From: Oceanispirochaeta crateris
GTDB taxonomy: Bacteria; Spirochaetota; Spirochaetia; DSM-2461
Length of the DNA stretch: 64,000 nucleotides
Assembly: GCF_008329965.1 (NCBI RefSeq)
Contig: NZ_CP036150.1
Coordinates: 496,001 to 560,000, forward strand
Direction of reading: 5' to 3'
The notes below the pieces were generated by a model, which worked only from the letters and a program-made list of their open reading frames with translations, ran no database searches and was not told the origin of the DNA. Made by a program: the position numbers and the translations under genes. Shown here piece after piece: positions 4,788 through 52,206 of this stretch (positions are counted from its first letter, which is position 1; every line of letters starts with the position of its first letter).

Positions 4788-6449
4788 TCAAGAAGAAGAG
4801 TTGGATTTAACGGATTCTTCGGCAAAGGCCAGAGCCGATTGAATGTCTTTGAAGAGGCATGACTCATCGGCAATGTTCTGATTCAAAAACTTCTTGATGA
4901 TCATTTCATTCACACCCGAATAGAGTATTTTGACATCTTTTTTTTGAAGATTTCGGATGATGTTTTTGAGTTTATTTAAACCAGAAGCATCGACAATCGG
5001 AACGTAGCGAAATCTTAGAATCAGAATGGAATGATTTGGTTTTATTTCCTTATTGATGTTCAAAAGGTGATGGACCGAGCCGAAGAACATGGGGCCATTC
5101 AACTCATAAATGATGATATTCTCTGAGTGTTCACCCAATTCATTTGAGAAGAGTTTTCCATCTCCCGCTTTACTTGTTAGAAGGGGAGATATCTCGACTG
5201 AATCGGCCATCCTTTTCATAAAAAGTATTACGGCCATGATAAAACCGACGGGAATGGCAATGGTCAAATCAGTAAAGAGGGTAAGCAAGAAGGTCGCTAA
5301 CAGGACCAGGGCTTCATATCTATTGATTCTTATTATATTTGAAAACTCCTTGAACTCTCCCATATTCCAGGAAACAACAATGAGTATTCCTGCCAGGGTA
5401 GCCAGGGGGATGAATTTTACCACAGGCATGGCCACAACATAGATGACGAGGAGTGTCAGAGCATGGACAATTCCTGCAATGGGACTCCGTCCCCCGTTTT
5501 TGATATTAGCCGCAGTTCGGGCTATGGCTCCTGTTGCGGGTATGCCACCAAAAAAAGGTGTTACCACATTGGCGATTCCCTGAGCAATCAATTCAACATT
5601 GGAGCGGTGAGATCCACCAATCATCCCATCTGCTACAACAGCAGACAGCAGGGATTCCAGAGAACCCAAAATGGCGATAGAAAGAGCGGGCGTGACCAGG
5701 GCCCCTAGAGTCTGCATATCAAATTCTGGAAGCCCCGGCTTAATCATCTGAAAAGAAATATTGCCAAAGCGGGTATAGATGGTTTCGACTGGTATCTGTG
5801 CTAGTTTGACGACCGCCGTGGTGAGAATGATGGCTGTGATAGCCGGGGGTATCTTCTTTGTCAACTTGGGCAGTCCCATAAGGATGAAGATGGTTACCAG
5901 GCCGATAGACAGAGATGCAGGATTTATCTTTCCCAGGTTCCGAAAATAATACAACCATTTTGTCAGAAAGGGTTCGGGAATTCCTGGAACATCGATCCCT
6001 AGAAAGTCTTTGATCTGGGTTGTGAAAATTATAACGGCGATCCCGCTTGTAAATCCAGTGATGAGAGTTTGGGGGATGTATTTTAGGAGAGAACCCATTT
6101 TCAGTAGACCCATAAGGATCAAAAAAATCCCGGCCATGACTGTGGCGATGAGAAGTCCCTCTATGCCGTACTGGTGGATAATCCCCGCAACAATGACAAT
6201 GAAGGCCCCTGTTGGACCTCCTATTTGAACACGGCTTCCCCCCAGAAGGGAGATTATAAAACCGGCAATGATGGCGGTGATGATTCCCTTATCGGGTGAA
6301 ACACCCGAGGCAATGGCAAAAGCAATGGCCAGAGGCAGGGCAATGATCCCCACCAAAATACCCGAGATGACATCCTGTCTGGCCTGTTGCGGACTGATTC
6401 CTCCCTTTAAAAGGGAAAAAAACTTTGGTGTCCATTCTTCTTTGATCAT
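4788..6449 (-). CDS. SulP-family anion transporter with STAS domain
   Basis: Inner-membrane transporter of the SLC26/SulP family, which carries sulfate, bicarbonate or related anions. It has an N-terminal amphipathic stretch, then about 10-12 hydrophobic segments containing GILVGIIALPLAIAFAIASG and GGSRVQIGGPTGAF. A cytoplasmic STAS domain fills about residues 440-553 (VPIVDASGLNKL). I start it at the ATG at 6449, preceded by GTGGAGCG; an in-frame GTG at 6479 is less likely. It is the last gene of a six-gene minus-strand operon of ion transporters and EIIA/CBS regulators, 53 bases after the ArsB/NhaD gene. The substrate cannot be read from the sequence. Confidence 0.88.
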   Translation of the reverse strand: MIKEEWTPKFFSLLKGGISPQQARQDVISGILVGIIALPLAIAFAIASGVSPDKGIITAIIAGFIISLLGGSRVQIGGPTGAFIVIVAGIIHQYGIEGLLIATVMAGIFLILMGLLKMGSLLKYIPQTLITGFTSGIAVIIFTTQIKDFLGIDVPGIPEPFLTKWLYYFRNLGKINPASLSIGLVTIFILMGLPKLTKKIPPAITAIILTTAVVKLAQIPVETIYTRFGNISFQMIKPGLPEFDMQTLGALVTPALSIAILGSLESLLSAVVADGMIGGSHRSNVELIAQGIANVVTPFFGGIPATGAIARTAANIKNGGRSPIAGIVHALTLLVIYVVAMPVVKFIPLATLAGILIVVSWNMGEFKEFSNIIRINRYEALVLLATFLLTLFTDLTIAIPVGFIMAVILFMKRMADSVEISPLLTSKAGDGKLFSNELGEHSENIIIYELNGPMFFGSVHHLLNINKEIKPNHSILILRFRYVPIVDASGLNKLKNIIRNLQKKDVKILYSGVNEMIIKKFLNQNIADESCLFKDIQSALAFAEESVKSNSSS

Positions 6450-6502
6450 TATATAATACGCTCCACTTTGCTGTTTCACTTTGTTTTTAGATCACAGGAA
6501 CT

Positions 6503-7777
6503 CTATATCAGATATCTGAGATAAACATAAGTACTGGAGACAATCAGAGAACAGATCATGATGATCATCCCATACTTTGTAAACTCCAAAAAACTAATTT
6601 TATAACCGCTGCGTCCAGAAAGGCCTGCGCTCACCACATTGGCTGATGCACCAATGAGTGTTCCGTTTCCTCCCAGACAGGCTCCGATGGCTAGAGACCA
6701 CCAGACAGGATCGATATTGGTACCCATATCCTGGCTCAGACGCTCCACTAAGGGAATCATTGTAGCCACATAGGGAATATTGTCCAAGAAGGCGGATAAA
6801 AATCCGCTGACCCAAATGATCGATTCTGAGGTAATAAAGAGATCACCCTTGGTCAAGACAAGGTATTTTTCGGCCAGAAAGTTGATCACACCCAGATTGA
6901 CAAGTCCTCCAACCATAATAAACAATCCGATGAAAAAGAATATAGTGGACCATTCTACCTCATGGAAAAACTCTTCAACATCCTCGGATCCAACAATCAA
7001 CATGAGAACTGCCGCACCTCCCAGAGCTATGGTGGAGGGTTCCAGCCCGGTTATCCCATGGAGGAGAAAAAATAGGAGCACTAGAAACATGACAACCAAA
7101 CTCTTGATGAGCAGAGTTTTATCCTTAATGGATGCATTTTCGTCAAAGTCCATAATACGTGCTCGTCTTTCCATACTCACATTCAGATCTTTTTTGAAGA
7201 ACAGGAGGATCAAACAGGCATGCATGACCATGAGGATCAGGGCAAGAGGACCAAGGTTGACCAGAAAGTCCGTAAAACCGAGTCCGGCAGCACTGCCGAT
7301 CATGATATTGGGCGGATCTCCGATGAGGGTCGCCATTCCTCCAATATTGGAAGCCAGGGCAGAACTGATAATAAAGGGGATGGGATTCAGGCCAAGTTCC
7401 ACCGAAATCAGGATGATCACAGGTGTCAGGATAAGGACAGTGGTCACATTGTCCAGAAGAGCTGAAAGAACTGCTGTGATTATTGAAAAAAGGATCAGAA
7501 TCTTAACAGGATCACCGTGAACAGCCTTGGCAGATTTGATGGCTATATACTGAAACAGACCAGATTTCTTGGTGATGCCCACGATAACCATCATTCCTAT
7601 CAGAAGGAAGATAACATTCCAGTCAATCTCTTCATAGGCCATGTGTTCGTTGAGGATGCCCAATGCTATAAAAAGGACGGCTCCCAGGAGAGCCAGAATC
7701 GTTTTATTGATGACTTCCAGAGAAATCAGAATAAATATGAGTATAAAAAAAGATACTCCAAGAACTAATTGTATCAT
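6503..7777 (-). CDS. ArsB/NhaD (ion transporter superfamily) permease
   Basis: 424-residue inner-membrane protein with roughly 11-12 hydrophobic segments. It has the two repeated half-motifs of the ion transporter superfamily: SALLDNVTTVLILTP with NIGGMATLIGDPPNIMIG in the first half, and SAFLDNIPYVATMIPL with GGNGTLIGASANVVSAG in the second. Such proteins export arsenite, exchange Na+/H+ (NhaD) or carry anions (SLC13 relatives). Beside a CPA2 antiporter and EIIA/CBS proteins, Na+/H+ exchange is the more likely role, but this is inference. Its start lies one base after the stop codon of the EIIA-CBS gene, so translation is probably coupled. Confidence 0.85.
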   Translation of the reverse strand: MIQLVLGVSFFILIFILISLEVINKTILALLGAVLFIALGILNEHMAYEEIDWNVIFLLIGMMVIVGITKKSGLFQYIAIKSAKAVHGDPVKILILFSIITAVLSALLDNVTTVLILTPVIILISVELGLNPIPFIISSALASNIGGMATLIGDPPNIMIGSAAGLGFTDFLVNLGPLALILMVMHACLILLFFKKDLNVSMERRARIMDFDENASIKDKTLLIKSLVVMFLVLLFFLLHGITGLEPSTIALGGAAVLMLIVGSEDVEEFFHEVEWSTIFFFIGLFIMVGGLVNLGVINFLAEKYLVLTKGDLFITSESIIWVSGFLSAFLDNIPYVATMIPLVERLSQDMGTNIDPVWWSLAIGACLGGNGTLIGASANVVSAGLSGRSGYKISFLEFTKYGMIIMICSLIVSSTYVYLRYLI

Positions 7778-7778
7778 C

Positions 7779-8669
7779 TCAAGCCCTCAATACTTTTTTT
7801 AAAATGTCAGTCTCACAGACCATACCCACCAGTTTCTTGTCTTCTATTACGGGGATATGACGGACATCTTTTGTGGTTATCATCATCACGGCTTCGATGA
7901 TGGACGCCTCTTTGCTGATCTTTCTACTGGGGGGACGCATGATTTCCTGAACCAGAATTCTATCTTCCTCCCGCAACAAGGCCTCAAAGGGCTCCAGAGT
8001 TTTCAGGAAGCTCACATAGCCCAGCCTTTTGACATAGTCGGGAATCCCCCGGGAGAAAAGATCTTTGATTGTTACTTCTCCAATCTGAACATTGTTTTCA
8101 TCCACCACAGGGATATAACTGAGATTCTTTTGATAGAACAAGTCGGCGAGCTGAGCCAGAGTTGTCTGTTTGCTAATGGATACAGGATTGACGGTCATAA
8201 TGTCTTCGATGGTGATCTCTTTTTTTATATCCATCGTATTGAGAAGGTCATGGATTTGTTGAGCCGAGAGGCCAAGAAGGGAATCCAAAAACTCCTCTTT
8301 CCCGAAGTATTTACCAAGGGAGGAGAGCATGGGGAGGTAGAGGGATGAACCAGCCTTGGATGTTAGAAAAAACATCAGGACTTTTACATCTCCCTGATCC
8401 GTTTCCAGAGTCTTTGAGGGAATCCACATGCCAATTAAAATATCCTCATATCCGTCAATACGCCCGTGTGGAATGGCTATTCCAGGAGGAATTACAGTGC
8501 CTCCCAGACGTTCTCTTTCCAGAACGATCTCCTGAATCTTCTCCATAGAAACGGGAAACTTTTCATTTTTGGCAAAGATCTCAATGAGGGCATCAACGGC
8601 TTCCATAACAGATGAGTACTTATCTCCTGTCAGGATGTATTCTTTTTGAATCAATGAACCTAATTTCAT
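7779..8669 (-). CDS. PTS EIIA (PtsN-like) domain fused to a CBS-domain pair
   Basis: The protein of 296 residues has an N-terminal EIIA type-2 domain (about residues 1-150). It includes the phosphorylatable histidine in PPGIAIPHGRIDG. A CBS pair follows (about residues 160-296, with TIEDIMTVNPVSIS and VQEIMRPPSRKIS). This links phosphorelay input with adenine-nucleotide sensing in one chain and suggests a regulator, not a sugar transporter. I start at the ATG at 8669 because GGAGGAAG precedes it; 33 further in-frame upstream codons overlap the antiporter gene and lie before this site. It sits between two transporter genes in the operon and probably controls one or both. Confidence 0.85.
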   Translation of the reverse strand: MKLGSLIQKEYILTGDKYSSVMEAVDALIEIFAKNEKFPVSMEKIQEIVLERERLGGTVIPPGIAIPHGRIDGYEDILIGMWIPSKTLETDQGDVKVLMFFLTSKAGSSLYLPMLSSLGKYFGKEEFLDSLLGLSAQQIHDLLNTMDIKKEITIEDIMTVNPVSISKQTTLAQLADLFYQKNLSYIPVVDENNVQIGEVTIKDLFSRGIPDYVKRLGYVSFLKTLEPFEALLREEDRILVQEIMRPPSRKISKEASIIEAVMMITTKDVRHIPVIEDKKLVGMVCETDILKKVLRA

Positions 8670-8670
8670 G

Positions 8671-10359
8671 TCAGACTTCCTCCATTTGGACTGCTTTATG
8701 CTCGAATTCTGACAGTCTGCGAGAAATGAGCTGTTGTATTCGTCTGTATTCGATGATTCCCTCTGCATGACCCTCTTTGTCTACCAGAGGAACAGATGCG
8801 ATATGACTCTTTTTGAAAAAGTTATAAATTTCGGCAGCGCTTGTCTCCAGGGTGCACTTATAGACCACCTTATCCATGATATCATGAGCCAGTAAAAAGT
8901 CTGAGAATTCAGAGGATATAAAAGTATCCTTTAACTTATCAATTGAAAGGATTCCTGTTAAAATTCCTTCTTTATTGACAACGGGATAATATAAATTGTC
9001 TCTTTCTGCGAAGATCCTCAAAATGCCCTTGAGTGTTTCGTCTTCTCTGATCATCGGAATCTCTTTATCCGCCAGATCGCCGGCTTTACTCTGTAGAATC
9101 AAGTCTTCTTCGGTTACATTCAGGCCGGCTTCACCGCTCTTGGTGACTGCATATTTGACAAAGGCGGGACCGATGATCTGAACCACAAATGTGGTTGCGG
9201 TGATCACCAGAATAATTGTATCGCCAATGGGGCCCTTAAAGGTTTGTCCTGCCACAATGGAAAGTCCTATGGCGACACCTGCTTGGCTCAATAGGCAGAA
9301 GGGAAGATATTTTCTGACAGTTTTGGGAGCTTTGGAGAGGGATGAACCCAAGATGGCACCTATGGCTTTTCCGGCGATCCTACCGATGATATAGATCAGG
9401 GCAAGAATGACCGACATGAACGTTAAGCCGGTGACATCCAGTTTGGCTCCTACAAGGACAAAAAATAAAATGTATACCGGGGGAGTAAACTTCTCTACAA
9501 GGTGAAATGTTTTTTTACTCCTTTGGGGAATGTTGTTGGTCACAAAGAAACCAAGGGTCATGGAAGCCAGGATCATGTCGACCTTCAGGAGCTGGGCCGT
9601 CCCTATGATCAGGAGGATCGCACCCACTGTGAAGGCTAGAATCTTATCGTCATCCACAAATGATTTCATGGCTCTTTTGATCATTGTTCCCGCTAGAAGT
9701 CCCACCAGAATTGCGGCTCCTATTTCCCATACAAGTTCCATCAGACTGTAGCCCAGGCTGATGTCTCCCTGTCCTGTTAATAGACCTGCAACGCTGGAAG
9801 CCAGTGCAAAAAGTAGAAGGGCAAAGGCGTCATCCATGGCGACGATGCCGAGGACCATGGTTGTTAAAGGTCCTCTTGTCTTATTTTCCCACAGTACGTC
9901 TGTCGTGGCGGCCGGCGCCGTGGCAGACGAAATAGCTCCCATCAGCAAACCGAAAGAAATGGCAGTGGCTTTGTCTTCGAAAAACAACAGACCCATGCCG
10001 ATCATCAGGGCGGATACGATGAAAAAGGCTCCCAGAGATTCAAGGACGAGAATTGTAGAAAATTGTTTTCCAAATTTCTTCAGCGTACTGATTCTTAGCT
10101 CCCCACCGATCATGAATCCAATGAGGCCGAGGGCAAAAAAGTTGAACGGCTGCAGGGATTCTAGGGTATTGAGGCTAATGATGTTGAATCCTGTTTTTCC
10201 CAGGATGACTCCCAGACAGATATAACCCACAACCTGGGGTATTTTCCATTTCTGAAATAGGCGCCCTACATAGGTTCCTCCAAAGAGGATAATCCCCATA
10301 AGAAATATGAGGTTTAAGTGTTCAACGGTAACGTGTTCGATTATAAAGTCTATCATCAT
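8671..10359 (-). CDS. CPA2-type cation/proton antiporter with C-terminal CBS pair
   Basis: 562 residues: about 12-13 hydrophobic segments (residues 1-400) typical of the KefB/NapA antiporter family, including IPQVVGYICLGVILGKTGF and GAISSATAPAATTDVL. The C-terminal 140 residues contain two CBS units (IPMIREDETLKGILRIFAE and the HDIMDKVVYKC region) that could bind adenine nucleotides and gate transport. Na+/H+ or K+/H+ exchange is the expected activity. The start overlaps the stop of the upstream EIIA gene (ATGA type) and the stop is followed almost at once by the EIIA-CBS gene. Both neighbours are therefore probably made in fixed ratio with it. Confidence 0.87.
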   Translation of the reverse strand: MMIDFIIEHVTVEHLNLIFLMGIILFGGTYVGRLFQKWKIPQVVGYICLGVILGKTGFNIISLNTLESLQPFNFFALGLIGFMIGGELRISTLKKFGKQFSTILVLESLGAFFIVSALMIGMGLLFFEDKATAISFGLLMGAISSATAPAATTDVLWENKTRGPLTTMVLGIVAMDDAFALLLFALASSVAGLLTGQGDISLGYSLMELVWEIGAAILVGLLAGTMIKRAMKSFVDDDKILAFTVGAILLIIGTAQLLKVDMILASMTLGFFVTNNIPQRSKKTFHLVEKFTPPVYILFFVLVGAKLDVTGLTFMSVILALIYIIGRIAGKAIGAILGSSLSKAPKTVRKYLPFCLLSQAGVAIGLSIVAGQTFKGPIGDTIILVITATTFVVQIIGPAFVKYAVTKSGEAGLNVTEEDLILQSKAGDLADKEIPMIREDETLKGILRIFAERDNLYYPVVNKEGILTGILSIDKLKDTFISSEFSDFLLAHDIMDKVVYKCTLETSAAEIYNFFKKSHIASVPLVDKEGHAEGIIEYRRIQQLISRRLSEFEHKAVQMEEV

Positions 10360-10811
10360 TGTTCTGATCCAATAAAGGCTGTTTTAATTTCTTCGGGAGT
10401 TTCTGCCTCCAGAATTCTATTAATGCTGGATTCGTCTTTCAGACGGTTCACAAGGAGGGATAAAATCCTGAGATATTCCTTGTGCTGATCTGCTCCCACC
10501 AGGATCATGATAATAATCTTGACTGGCTGTTTATCCAGAGATTCATAGTCTTCAATTCCTTTAGGATTGATTCCAACTAGAATTTGAGGTTCTGTTATTC
10601 CTTCATACCGGATATGGGGAATTCCAAGGCCCTGGCCGATGCCGGTGCTCATGATCTGTTCTCTGTAGAAGATTTCTTTTTTGACGTTTTCTGTATCGCT
10701 GATGAGACCTTCAGATTCGATATACTCAAAAATCTCATGAAATGCTTCTGTTTTGGTTGTGCTTTTCAAAATGAAACATCTTTCTTTCTTAATTAAACTG
10801 TTTATGTTCAT
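10356..10811 (-). CDS. Stand-alone PTS EIIA (PtsN-like) protein
   Basis: 151-residue cytoplasmic protein that is only an EIIA type-2 domain. The phosphorylation site is His66 in GQGLGIPHIRYEG. It lacks any sugar-permease partner nearby, as with EIIA(Ntr)/PtsN, which regulates K+ and other transport by binding target proteins. It overlaps the antiporter start by four bases, which points to the antiporter as a possible partner. AAGGTGGA precedes the ATG at the right distance. Confidence 0.85.
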   Translation of the reverse strand: MNINSLIKKERCFILKSTTKTEAFHEIFEYIESEGLISDTENVKKEIFYREQIMSTGIGQGLGIPHIRYEGITEPQILVGINPKGIEDYESLDKQPVKIIIMILVGADQHKEYLRILSLLVNRLKDESSINRILEAETPEEIKTAFIGSEQ

Positions 10812-10862
10812 ATTTTTAATCCACCTTATGGAAAAGTATTTGCGACTTCTTACTGTATTATT

Positions 10863-11333
10863 CTAAACAACTTTTAGGAATTTACTACGTGATTTTTCTA
10901 CACAGTTATTTTTTGAGTTTAGAAAGGCTAATAGGCTGTTGATGGTGACTTCTCCTAGCAGTCTTCCATGGCTATCCACAACCGCCATTGCCTCATGGGA
11001 AGATGTGGTGAGATCCTGAAGGATTTCGGAGAGTGTATTCGTCAGACTCAAGGTCCTGAAATTTTGATCAATAAGATCTGAAAGAGAGATACTCTTTAGT
11101 TTTTCCATGAGAGATACCGTATGCTGTTCATCCAGCAGAGGCAGCATGGGGGCTATAAACTGGAGAACTGTCTTTTCGCTGAGTATTCCTTTGAGAGTAT
11201 TCTGGTGGTCTACAATATAGCAGTTAGCAGTCTTTTTTTCCTTCCTGGAGAGAAAGCTGTGTAATGAGTCGCTTTCGCTCAGACAATTGAGTTTTTCCCG
11301 GCTCATCATTTCATGGATCTGTTTCTTTATCAT
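10863..11333 (-). CDS. CBS-domain pair protein
   Basis: 156-residue soluble protein made of two CBS units (roughly 1-75 and 80-145; note NTLKGILSEKTVLQFI and GRLLGEVTINSLLAFL). It has no catalytic domain. It is the first gene of the EIIA/CBS/transporter operon, with GGGAG before the start. A role as an adenylate-sensing subunit for a downstream transporter is inferred from context only. Confidence 0.75.
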   Translation of the reverse strand: MIKKQIHEMMSREKLNCLSESDSLHSFLSRKEKKTANCYIVDHQNTLKGILSEKTVLQFIAPMLPLLDEQHTVSLMEKLKSISLSDLIDQNFRTLSLTNTLSEILQDLTTSSHEAMAVVDSHGRLLGEVTINSLLAFLNSKNNCVEKSRSKFLKVV

Positions 11334-11390
11334 TTCTGGAACTCCCTATTTGTTCATGCAATTTAGTCATTTAGTATCTGATATGAAATA

Positions 11391-11738
11391 TTACAAAGAA
11401 CAGAGAGGGGGAGCTCGAAGGGACTGTGAAAAAACAAGGTAAAGATCTTGTGTGAATATTGAGACTTTAGGGAGTTCTGTACTGGCAAGGAGCGGCCCAT
11501 ATATCTCTTTGCCCAATATAGAGAGAAGAATCGTTTGAACTCTTGTTCTCCCTTCCATTTCTTCAGTATCCTCACTGAGGAGACCAATTCCTTCTTCTCC
11601 GGGGGATTGGTCGTATCCGTTTCCGGACAGCTCAAGGCTGTCCAGGATGACACAGTTATCCTGTGTGAGGATCTCTGTGCCCGCTGTGCTTGCGAAGATA
11701 AATAAAAATAGACTTGTCAGTATGACAGCTTTTCTCAT
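11391..11738 (-). CDS. Small exported protein of unknown function
   Basis: A predicted signal peptide (MRKAVILTSLFLFIFASTAG) starts a 115-residue protein with no domain I recognise. The in-frame ATG at 11759 has no ribosome site; the start at 11738 follows AAGGA closely and gives a proper signal peptide. It lies upstream of the CBS-gene operon on the same strand, but the gap of about 57 bases leaves co-transcription open. Confidence 0.5.
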   Translation of the reverse strand: MRKAVILTSLFLFIFASTAGTEILTQDNCVILDSLELSGNGYDQSPGEEGIGLLSEDTEEMEGRTRVQTILLSILGKEIYGPLLASTELPKVSIFTQDLYLVFSQSLRAPPLCSL

Positions 11739-11857: not shown

Positions 11858-12496
11858 TCAGTTTGAAGGGTGAAGTTCTATGATTAAACTCTCTTCTGTA
11901 AACATAAGCAGGATCAGGGGAATCTCTATGAGTAGAGATGAACCGTAGCGATTAGAGCTTATTTGATTCGTGAGTTCCATATTTGAGTCCTCAAAGCGTA
12001 TTTTGGGATAGGGATATTTTCTAAGATCACCTGATAAATCCAAAAGCAAACGGTATTTTGCGCCGGAGAGAAAGGCAGCTCCAAACTCATCTGTTTCTTC
12101 ATCTGCTTTCCCCATACCAGGAATCCTGATCTCATACATATGATTCTTATAGACAGGAATGTATTCTATTTCATTGTCCAATGACCGGGCCATGTCTTTC
12201 ATTGAGCCCGCTATGTTTAATGCAGCCCCTATCTCATATTCTGTGTCTATAGAGCTGATGGTCCCGTTGATCTCTTCAAATTGATCAAAAATATCGATTC
12301 CTTCATTCAGCAAGTCTTCATAATCTGTTTCTTCTCCTGAAAATGAGGCACCCATTTCCAAAATGGCTTTCTGGATTGTGAATTTCATTGTCATTTTGAC
12401 TTGGCCTTTGTCCAGGGAAACGGACTGAAAAATATCAATACAACCGGTCATCAGGAAAGTGCAGAATAGGAGGAGCAAGGTTAATTTAATTTTCAA
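11858..12496 (-). CDS. Putative lipoprotein of unknown function
   Basis: 212 residues beginning with a lipoprotein signal peptide whose lipobox is LMTGC (Cys18 region). The rest is soluble and acidic with no family I can name. The start is a TTG at 12496 with AAGGAAA upstream. A final hydrophobic stretch (LLIEIPLILLMF) lies near the C-terminus. It sits divergently from the thioredoxin-like gene across a 148-base AT-rich gap. Confidence 0.65.
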   Translation of the reverse strand: MKIKLTLLLLFCTFLMTGCIDIFQSVSLDKGQVKMTMKFTIQKAILEMGASFSGEETDYEDLLNEGIDIFDQFEEINGTISSIDTEYEIGAALNIAGSMKDMARSLDNEIEYIPVYKNHMYEIRIPGMGKADEETDEFGAAFLSGAKYRLLLDLSGDLRKYPYPKIRFEDSNMELTNQISSNRYGSSLLIEIPLILLMFTEESLIIELHPSN

Positions 12497-51872: not shown

Positions 51873-51883
51873 TAATTGAAAGG

Positions 51884-52206
51884 CATAGACGGAGACGAGT
51901 AACTGTACCCCGGGTCAAGAGAGAAGCGGTTCATAGGCTGGAAGGCCGCTGGCTCAAGAGCAGAGAAAACCCCTCCCGAGCTGCTTCCCGAAAGGACCTC
52001 CCCTGTAGTGAGGAGGAATCCGATTAGATGAAGACGAAATCCCGCGTTAAGGGAGAGCTGAGAGCGCCTTGTGCAGACACACTGGCAAAGGCGAAATAAG
52101 GTGGTACCGCGGAGAGCCCTTTTGTTCTTCGTCCTTATACTGAAATTTGTTTTTTAGTGACAGGACGGAGCATGAAAGGGTTTTTTATGCCGTTCTGGAA
52201 CGGAGG
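51884..52206 (+). ncRNA. T-box riboswitch upstream of thrS
   Basis: The T-box core AAGGTGGTACCGCGG is at 52098-52112, with the downstream partner CCTT (52133-52136). Upstream is a Stem I-like region: GAGTA (51896-51900), the apical AGAGA and GGCTGGAAGG elements between the stem halves AGCGG and CCGCT, and a possible threonine specifier ACC at 51969-51971. CTTCGTCCT (52127-52135) can pair with AGGACGGAG (52162-52170) as an alternative stem, and a run of six T follows at 52181-52186. A further hairpin, CCGTT-CTGG-AACGG (52190-52203), touches the GGAGG ribosome site at 52202-52206. Uncharged tRNA-Thr would favour the antiterminator and allow thrS expression. Confidence 0.88.

Follow-up and report, generated by a model that had tools for sequence, protein, structure and literature searches.

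Within the window, the whole 64,000-nucleotide stretch of Oceanispirochaeta crateris DNA that was analysed, positions 4788 to 11333 carry six open reading frames on the minus strand, in the order CBS, EIIA, CPA2-CBS, EIIA-CBS, CitMHS (ArsB/NhaD type) and SulP. All six belong to the families assigned to them by an earlier sequence-only reading. The 5' boundary of the operon, however, lies about 0.4 kb beyond these genes, as the first gene is a leader ORF, with pairing to the adjoining Shine-Dalgarno, that was missing from the earlier list. The features are as follows.

11391-11738, minus strand: leader ORF, 115 aa, MRKAVILTSLFLF...SQSLRAPPLCSL*, candidate ribosome-arrest peptide with a predicted export signal
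11406-11417, minus strand: RAPP codons CGA GCT CCC CCT, predicted stall site with the first Pro in the P-site
11334-11417, minus strand: mRNA stem, predicted pairing of the RAPP-to-stop segment with the Shine-Dalgarno of the CBS gene (GGGAG, 11342-11346)
10863-11333, minus strand: CBS-pair protein, 156 aa (profile matches)
10356-10811, minus strand: stand-alone EIIA (PTS_EIIA_2), 151 aa, His66 (Pfam match)
8671-10359, minus strand: CPA2 Na_H_Exchanger antiporter with a C-terminal CBS pair, 562 aa (profile matches)
7779-8669, minus strand: fusion of EIIA and a CBS pair, 296 aa, His68/Arg52 (profile matches and orthologue alignment)
6503-7777, minus strand: CitMHS (PF03600) permease, ArsB/NhaD type (ArsB profile also matched)
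4788-6479, minus strand: SulP transporter with STAS domain, co-directional, not a conserved member

The leader ORF ends in SLRAPPLCSL* at 57 nt upstream of the CBS gene, and its mechanical ORF reaches 11759. The start of EIIA-CBS was set at 8669 instead of the 8768 of the mechanical ORF because its orthologues begin there. Junctions described earlier as mostly overlapping or of one base are so in three of five cases (a 4-nt overlap of EIIA and CPA2, and 1-nt gaps for CPA2/EIIA-CBS and EIIA-CBS/CitMHS), whereas CBS and EIIA are separated by 51 nt and CitMHS and SulP by 23 nt.

Gene order was found to be kept across spirochaete genera and families, and the earlier idea of a joint system therefore survives the comparison with relatives that could have overturned it. 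At 31 of the 33 orthologous loci, the EIIA-CBS gene is followed directly by CitMHS, the intergenic distance ranging from -142 to +9 nt, and the same adjacency is seen in further families. The core EIIA>CPA2-CBS>EIIA-CBS>CitMHS is also present in six other genomes (G004, G007, G011, G012, G016 and G097), its last three genes are present in G002, and a CBS gene upstream of EIIA-CBS occurs also in G001, G005, G009, G014, G018, G218 and G290. The co-occurrence of the operon genes is far beyond chance. A scan of named genomes for distribution outside the spirochaetes returned six MAGs of spirochaetes, and two weak matches confined to CBS. The proposal that three ion transporters form one system is unsupported because SulP is adjacent in intact form only at this locus, with an 85-aa remnant in G002 and a convergent gene in G016; SulP was thus rejected as a conserved member and is regarded as a passenger.

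Both operon EIIA proteins score above the Pfam cut-off for PTS_EIIA_2, and both miss the PtsN equivalog cut-offs (41 and 60 bits against 138.7 for TIGR01419; 33 and 66 bits against 221 for NF008145). The phosphorylatable His that had been noted in both domains is confirmed: the catalytic His68 of EIIA-CBS, the equivalent of His66 in the stand-alone EIIA, is invariant at 33/33 orthologous loci, and Arg is kept too (Arg52 at 32/33, the remaining one being an alignment gap). The second active-site His is replaced by Tyr in both, and is His in the genome's other five EIIAs. Relay genes of the kind sought earlier (ptsP/ptsO-like) are encoded in the same genome, comprising three EI N-domain genes, one HPr and one HPr kinase, with a GAF-EI of the EI-Ntr type at L095. 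A search restricted to PF02378 (PTS_EIIC) among the EIIC families gave no match in the genome, which agrees with the earlier statement that no sugar-permease part is present, and a sugar PTS role was rejected on this ground. Furthermore, five of the genome's seven EIIA domains are found in or next to ion pumps or antiporters, the contexts outside this operon being a fusion to a CPA2 antiporter, a position beside Mrp antiporter subunits and a PII-like protein, and a position beside V-ATPase genes.

In E. coli, EIIA-Ntr (PtsN) acts on TrkA, KdpD and YcgO, and unphosphorylated PtsN binds the antiporter YcgO and inhibits it (PMC11808508). The proteins of this operon share with PtsN the PTS_EIIA_2 fold and a predicted phospho-His, as well as a relay devoid of a sugar permease and a cation antiporter as the target proposed here. 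Unlike PtsN, one EIIA is fused to a CBS pair, and the EIIAs are encoded beside dedicated antiporters and fall below the PtsN cut-offs. A literature search returned no paper combining EIIA, PtsN, CBS domain and antiporter. Control of ion transport by the PTS through these EIIA proteins is a well-supported proposal. Conserved order, His/Arg retention, the relay genes and the lack of PTS_EIIC all favour the earlier suggestion of ion homeostasis through PTS phosphorylation, although phosphorylation, transporter binding and the ions transported are what we infer from them. If correct, EIIA-CBS/CitMHS would provide a strictly paired and widespread case for testing PTS control of ion transport outside proteobacteria.

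Sensing of adenylate charge by all three CBS modules, as had also been suggested, is weakly indicated, since by inspection the usual ribose-binding [ST]xxD motifs are kept in EIIA-CBS but not in the other two modules. The small CBS protein was rejected as a CbpB-type c-di-AMP receptor, scoring 33 of the 125 bits of the cut-off. The predicted CPA2 antiporter matches the Na_H_Exchanger domain at 6.4e-33, above the cut-off. The likeness of the operon transporters to characterised ArsB/NhaD/MamN-type CitMHS permeases and CPA2 antiporters is at the family level of sequence, and every NCBIfam equivalog cut-off was missed, including those of ArsB (123/457 bits) and NhaD (42/80 bits) by the CitMHS permease.

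It may be argued that the EIIA proteins owe their whole regulatory effect to CBS partners that bind nucleotides or c-di-AMP, the PTS His being vestigial. The replacement of the second His by Tyr and the c-di-AMP cyclases in the genome, one of them an EIIA-DAC fusion, are in keeping with this, but His68 and Arg52 are retained (Arg52 with the single gap) while most other columns vary, and the relay is complete, which makes this reading improbable. It is less probable still that the neighbours are only co-transcribed, functionally uncoupled stress genes; SulP is clearly a passenger, but near-invariant adjacency over many families and the EIIA-CPA2 antiporter fusion in the same genome argue against it.

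RAPP-ending ORFs with a predicted signal peptide were found at 10 loci in four spirochaete families, all directly upstream of this operon, whereas eight control motifs gave zero such ORFs in 706 kb; a chance ORF was rejected on positional recurrence and these controls. LRAPP is present at 9 of the 10, the loci having been collected through the RAPP motif itself, and a RAPP leader occurs at 7/7 of the g1/g5 loci with the upstream region covered. Many relatives lack the leader at this position, and in the closest one (G002) this region is missing from the assembly. The seven closest peptides are 111-121 aa long, with a positive N-terminus and a hydrophobic core (Kyte-Doolittle 2.4-2.8) that predict an export signal. 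Genes directly 3' of the leaders encode CBS, HTH or EIIA-CBS proteins, and no Sec/YidC component is directly downstream. A scan requiring Leu before RAPP gave four more L-[RS]-A-P-P codon-pattern matches elsewhere in the genome; none of the three read in frame is a small exported ORF, and the last has Ser (AGT) instead of Arg.

The leader 3' end pairs with the Shine-Dalgarno of the next gene at P<0.03 in 8/10 loci, L039 and L129 being not significant; the combined Fisher P is about 2e-7, although CCUCC (the Pro-Pro codons) resembles the anti-Shine-Dalgarno and part of the pairing could therefore be a by-product. Five loci, however, pair through codons 3' of RAPP. At this locus the stem has a fold z of -2.95 and pairing P values of 0.008 and 0.004, and at L040 modelled stalling frees the Shine-Dalgarno only partly.

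The mechanism of ribosome stalling by RAPP has been solved (PMC10951233), but RAPP is insufficient for arrest, and efficient stalling was not seen with most of the RAPP-like sequences from E. coli and B. subtilis that were assayed (PMC10987492). Known RAPP leaders serve Sec components, and others have been reported ahead of copper, TonB and DsbA-like genes; antiporters and PTS regulators were not named as targets in the RAPP and arrest-peptide literature searched. Judged by its sequence, the leader has the anatomy of SecM and VemP on such an unnamed target type: SecM, VemP, ApdA/ApdP and other RQH peptides fall with it in the 80-200 aa range and share its predicted N-terminal export signal, its C-terminal RAPP and the hiding of the next gene's Shine-Dalgarno by the leader 3' end. 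Unlike the secA, secDF or yidC targets of SecM-type leaders, CBS, EIIA and ion-transporter genes lie here, and arrest is a candidate property.

Taken together, the locus is probably a conserved spirochaete ion-homeostasis operon with a translational layer and an activity layer of control. In the former, the leader would be an arrest peptide exported co-translationally. Free export would allow it to be completed and released, its ORF end then masking the next Shine-Dalgarno; on faltering export, the ribosome held at RAPP would cover the pairing strand, free the Shine-Dalgarno and permit translation of the operon. In the latter, the EIIA proteins would be terminal phospho-acceptors of a regulatory PTS devoid of sugar permease, and their His phosphorylation state, together with nucleotides bound by the CBS pair in EIIA-CBS, would switch the transporters, CPA2-CBS being the partner of EIIA and the CitMHS permease that of EIIA-CBS. 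The RAPP motif and the RNA pairing potential are observed; both the arrest and the signal sensed we infer.

As to that signal, the seven closest peptides carry a net charge of -3 to -10 at 44-62 residues before the P-site, and the acidic profile peaks at 51-57 residues (circular-shift P 1e-4, the window having been picked after the data were seen). A tentative refinement, short of being favoured, is that the leader monitors Sec export driven by membrane potential, delta-psi pulling the acidic cluster outward with the ribosome at RAPP, so that low potential would prolong arrest and turn the antiporters on. In SecYEG, acidic residues are pulled by delta-psi, which also releases SecM arrest (review PMC6028853), and VemP is a sensor of Na+-driven export (PMC5449182); on the other hand, the distance window is post hoc, the L116 and L126 leaders carry no cluster, and the targets are not Sec genes. 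Membrane-potential sensing is speculative. Rather unlikely is a leader that responds to a particular cation or metal outside the cytoplasm by way of acidic or Cys residues. Acidic clusters are able to bind cations, and CruR (RAPP) and CutF, also exported proline-motif leaders, are proposed to control whether metal-handling genes are translated; however, these are proposed copper sensors, whereas an acidic cluster and antiporter targets are present here, and the seven-peptide alignment has no conserved metal-ligand pattern. The fullest version of the membrane-potential reading, somewhat doubtful as a whole, makes the leader a natural sensor whose acidic cluster would sit in the Sec translocon at RAPP, a de-energised membrane turning the antiporter operon on; with PTS-EIIA control added, ion-motive force would be read at the level of translation and PEP status at that of protein activity. 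If true, it would connect the sensing of force on a nascent chain with ion homeostasis, and reporters could be used directly to ask if a stalled ribosome lets bacteria read their membrane potential.

The operon, which the sequence-only reading had begun at the CBS gene, is preceded by a further ORF overlooked there:

11738-11391, minus strand: leader ORF of 115 aa, running from MRKAVILTSLFLFIFASTAGTE to SQSLRAPPLCSL before the stop, directly upstream of the CBS gene.

Equivalents stand ahead of the operon in six compared genomes (G001, G004, G005, G009, G014 and G018); they are 111-121 aa long with a positive N-terminus and a hydrophobic core and are otherwise diverged, while LRAPP is invariant in the closest leaders, 3-7 residues before the C-terminal end. 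Three more leaders precede EIIA-CBS or CBS in other families (G185, G183, G218), and G290 bears HSPP instead of RAPP in an ORF at the leader position. In ∼706 kb of fetched sequence, mostly neighbourhoods of this operon, so that the background is local and not genome-wide, eight small signal-bearing ORFs carry RAPP within 10 residues of the end, all at the leader position, against no hits for eight control motifs; further loci raised the RAPP-ending leaders to 10. A scan of the whole own genome for the LRAPP codon pattern found the leader as the only small exported ORF. Upstream positional ORFs at L120:3730-4083 and L119:9302-9613 end in HSPP and in a final Pro before the stop, respectively, possibly variant arrest motifs. 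Upstream of the leader lies a putative lipoprotein ORF (window 11858-12496) without a Pfam match.

RAPP is reported to halt peptide-bond formation (PMC10951233), and export force relieves the arrest of SecM and VemP (VemP: PMC5449182). Among RAPP-like sequences assayed in E. coli and B. subtilis, the majority did not stall efficiently (PMC10987492); RAPP alone is thus insufficient as proof, and the leader is a candidate arrest peptide. The seven closest leaders carry a net charge of −3 to −10 at 44-62 residues ahead of the P-site, peaking at 51-57 (circular-shift P 1e-4, for a window picked after inspection); charge at a matching distance is found in G218 (net −3) and the G290 variant (net −5), and G185 and G183 do not fit. 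The pull of membrane potential on acidic residues is strongest 47-49 residues from the P-site. As reviewed for SecM force experiments, arrest is released when this potential draws acidic residues through the SecYEG translocon (PMC6028853). Were the leader to respond likewise, loss of membrane energisation would keep it arrested and turn the antiporters on.

The leader mRNA, from the RAPP codons to just beyond the stop, is computed to pair with the next gene's Shine-Dalgarno region. Pairing is stronger than with dinucleotide-shuffled leader sides (P<0.03) at 8 of 10 loci, L039 and L129 failing. Combined P values, which serve as guides because related sequences are not independent, are 1.8e-7 (Fisher) for leader-side and 5e-9 for Shine-Dalgarno-side shuffles, or 6e-6 and 6e-8 with a single member of the G009/G014/G018 group. 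Part of the pairing may come free, since Pro-Pro codons resemble the anti-Shine-Dalgarno; L040 and L051-L054 pair via codons past RAPP. The pairing letters vary among loci (CUCCC/GGGAG here, CUAUUCC/GGAAUAG in L051, ACCUCCAU/AUGGAGGU in L126), as a conserved structure would lead one to expect. In L126 a short ORF separates leader and EIIA-CBS, and the paired Shine-Dalgarno is that ORF's own. When a ribosome stalled at RAPP was modelled by masking, Shine-Dalgarno accessibility rose in 6 of 7 loci, not in L039, and from 0.34 to 0.64 at the own locus, where the element has a fold z of −2.95.

ORF and family searches confirmed the positions and families of the six genes. With EIIA-CBS starting at 8669, not 8768, 1-nt gaps separate it from CPA2-CBS and CitMHS, and EIIA overlaps CPA2-CBS by 4 nt; the tight junctions described earlier hold at these three but not before EIIA (51 nt) or SulP (23 nt). 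EIIA-CBS was used to search 41 relatives, the permease 148 genomes of the class, and an EIIA-CBS profile 296 genomes of the phylum; gene neighbourhoods were then read. Of the 33 loci where CitMHS has a close orthologue (>300 bits to a family profile), 31 place EIIA-CBS directly upstream of CitMHS, with gaps of −142 to +9 nt, the −142 nt values (L048, L080) being a product of mechanical start choice; a stand-alone CPA2 antiporter takes its place at L089 and L090. Loci were fetched partly via EIIA-CBS and partly via the permease, and the adjacency is no search artefact because it is equally strict in the permease-fetched set. The gene-order search proposed earlier recovered the core EIIA, CPA2-CBS, EIIA-CBS, CitMHS in further spirochaetes (G004, G007, G011, G012, G016 and, from another family, G097). 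Shorter forms are CBS, EIIA-CBS, CitMHS (G001, G005, G009, G014, G018, G218, G290) and the bare EIIA-CBS/CitMHS pair; in G073 that pair is accompanied by CPA2-CBS and an HTH-EIIA running divergently from it. SulP, formerly counted as a third transporter of the system, adjoins the operon only here, being an 85-aa remnant in the closest relative (G002) and convergent in G016, and is best left out. A separate HTH protein replaces the CBS gene in G004, and in one family of the relatives a conserved membrane protein of 87-88 aa is encoded next upstream of EIIA-CBS (L121:9489-9752, L122:8286-8552 and L123:7915-8178).

In EIIA-CBS, the phospho-His H68 and the Pro before it are invariant in 33 sequences; all but one of these, which has a gap there, keep the active-site Arg R52 (32 of 33). 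Both operon EIIAs carry Tyr at a site that is a second His in the genome's other five, which may alter onward phosphotransfer. The AlphaFold2 model of EIIA-CBS (mean pLDDT 80.2, pTM 0.56) comprises a PtsN-like domain and a CBS pair, with PtsN 3urr and AMP/ADP-bound AcuB 9s4v as best PDB matches. By inspection, this pair retains the [ST]xxD ribose motifs (D203 in 31/33, D288 in 25/33; lost in the distant G005/G009/G014/G018 clade), which are absent from the CPA2-CBS tail and the small CBS protein; of the adenylate sensing earlier ascribed to all three modules, that by EIIA-CBS is therefore the better founded.

The proposed look for ptsP/ptsO-like genes elsewhere showed, in the 4.01-Mb, one-contig genome, three EI N-domains (an ordinary EI and two long forms, of which one has a recognised GAF domain), a single HPr and an HPr kinase adjoining it; PTS_EIIC has zero matches genome-wide, in agreement with the missing sugar-permease part. 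Two of the seven EIIA_2 domains are in the operon, the others being:

L055:2309-7278: EIIA flanked on one side by a PII-like protein and on the other by Mrp-type antiporter subunits
L056:6296-8452: CPA2 antiporter of 718 aa that ends in an EIIA domain
L057:5615-6560: genes for Usp and EIIA, immediately following those for V-type ATPase subunits
L058:6237-6947: HTH_17-EIIA fusion
L059:6000-7382 (G000:C1 about 2793999-2795378): EIIA-DAC (diadenylate cyclase) fusion, 460 aa

Five of the seven thus adjoin or sit inside ion pumps or antiporters. In E. coli, PtsN that lacks the phosphoryl group binds the K+/H+ antiporter YcgO and inhibits it (PMC11808508), and TrkA and KdpD are further targets (PMC13104625). 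This context and these precedents therefore make PTS control of the operon's two transporters the best reading, as we infer. HTH_17-EIIA also occurs at L050:2494-3171, L078:11638-12357 and L079:2626-3324, and such proteins of relatives adjoin EIIA-CBS or CPA2-CBS. EIIA-DAC keeps the PTS-type His motif KGIAFPHS, which suggests a PTS input to c-di-AMP synthesis; within the class, 44 of 148 genomes hold a match to it (E≤1e-25), and a literature search found no description of the fusion.

RAPP leaders are reported ahead of Sec genes, TonB receptors, copper genes and DsbA-like genes (PMC10987492); the main texts examined on such leaders do not contain 'antiporter' and give only a proteome statistic for spirochaetes. 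The leader is built like Sec/YidC monitoring substrates but lies outside that group, whose target is by definition a Sec/YidC gene; leader and operon combine known kinds in a new variation. Elsewhere in the window, 51877-52139 is a T-box leader (96.8 against an Rfam gathering score of 93), a class that is, to our knowledge, unusual outside Firmicutes and allies.
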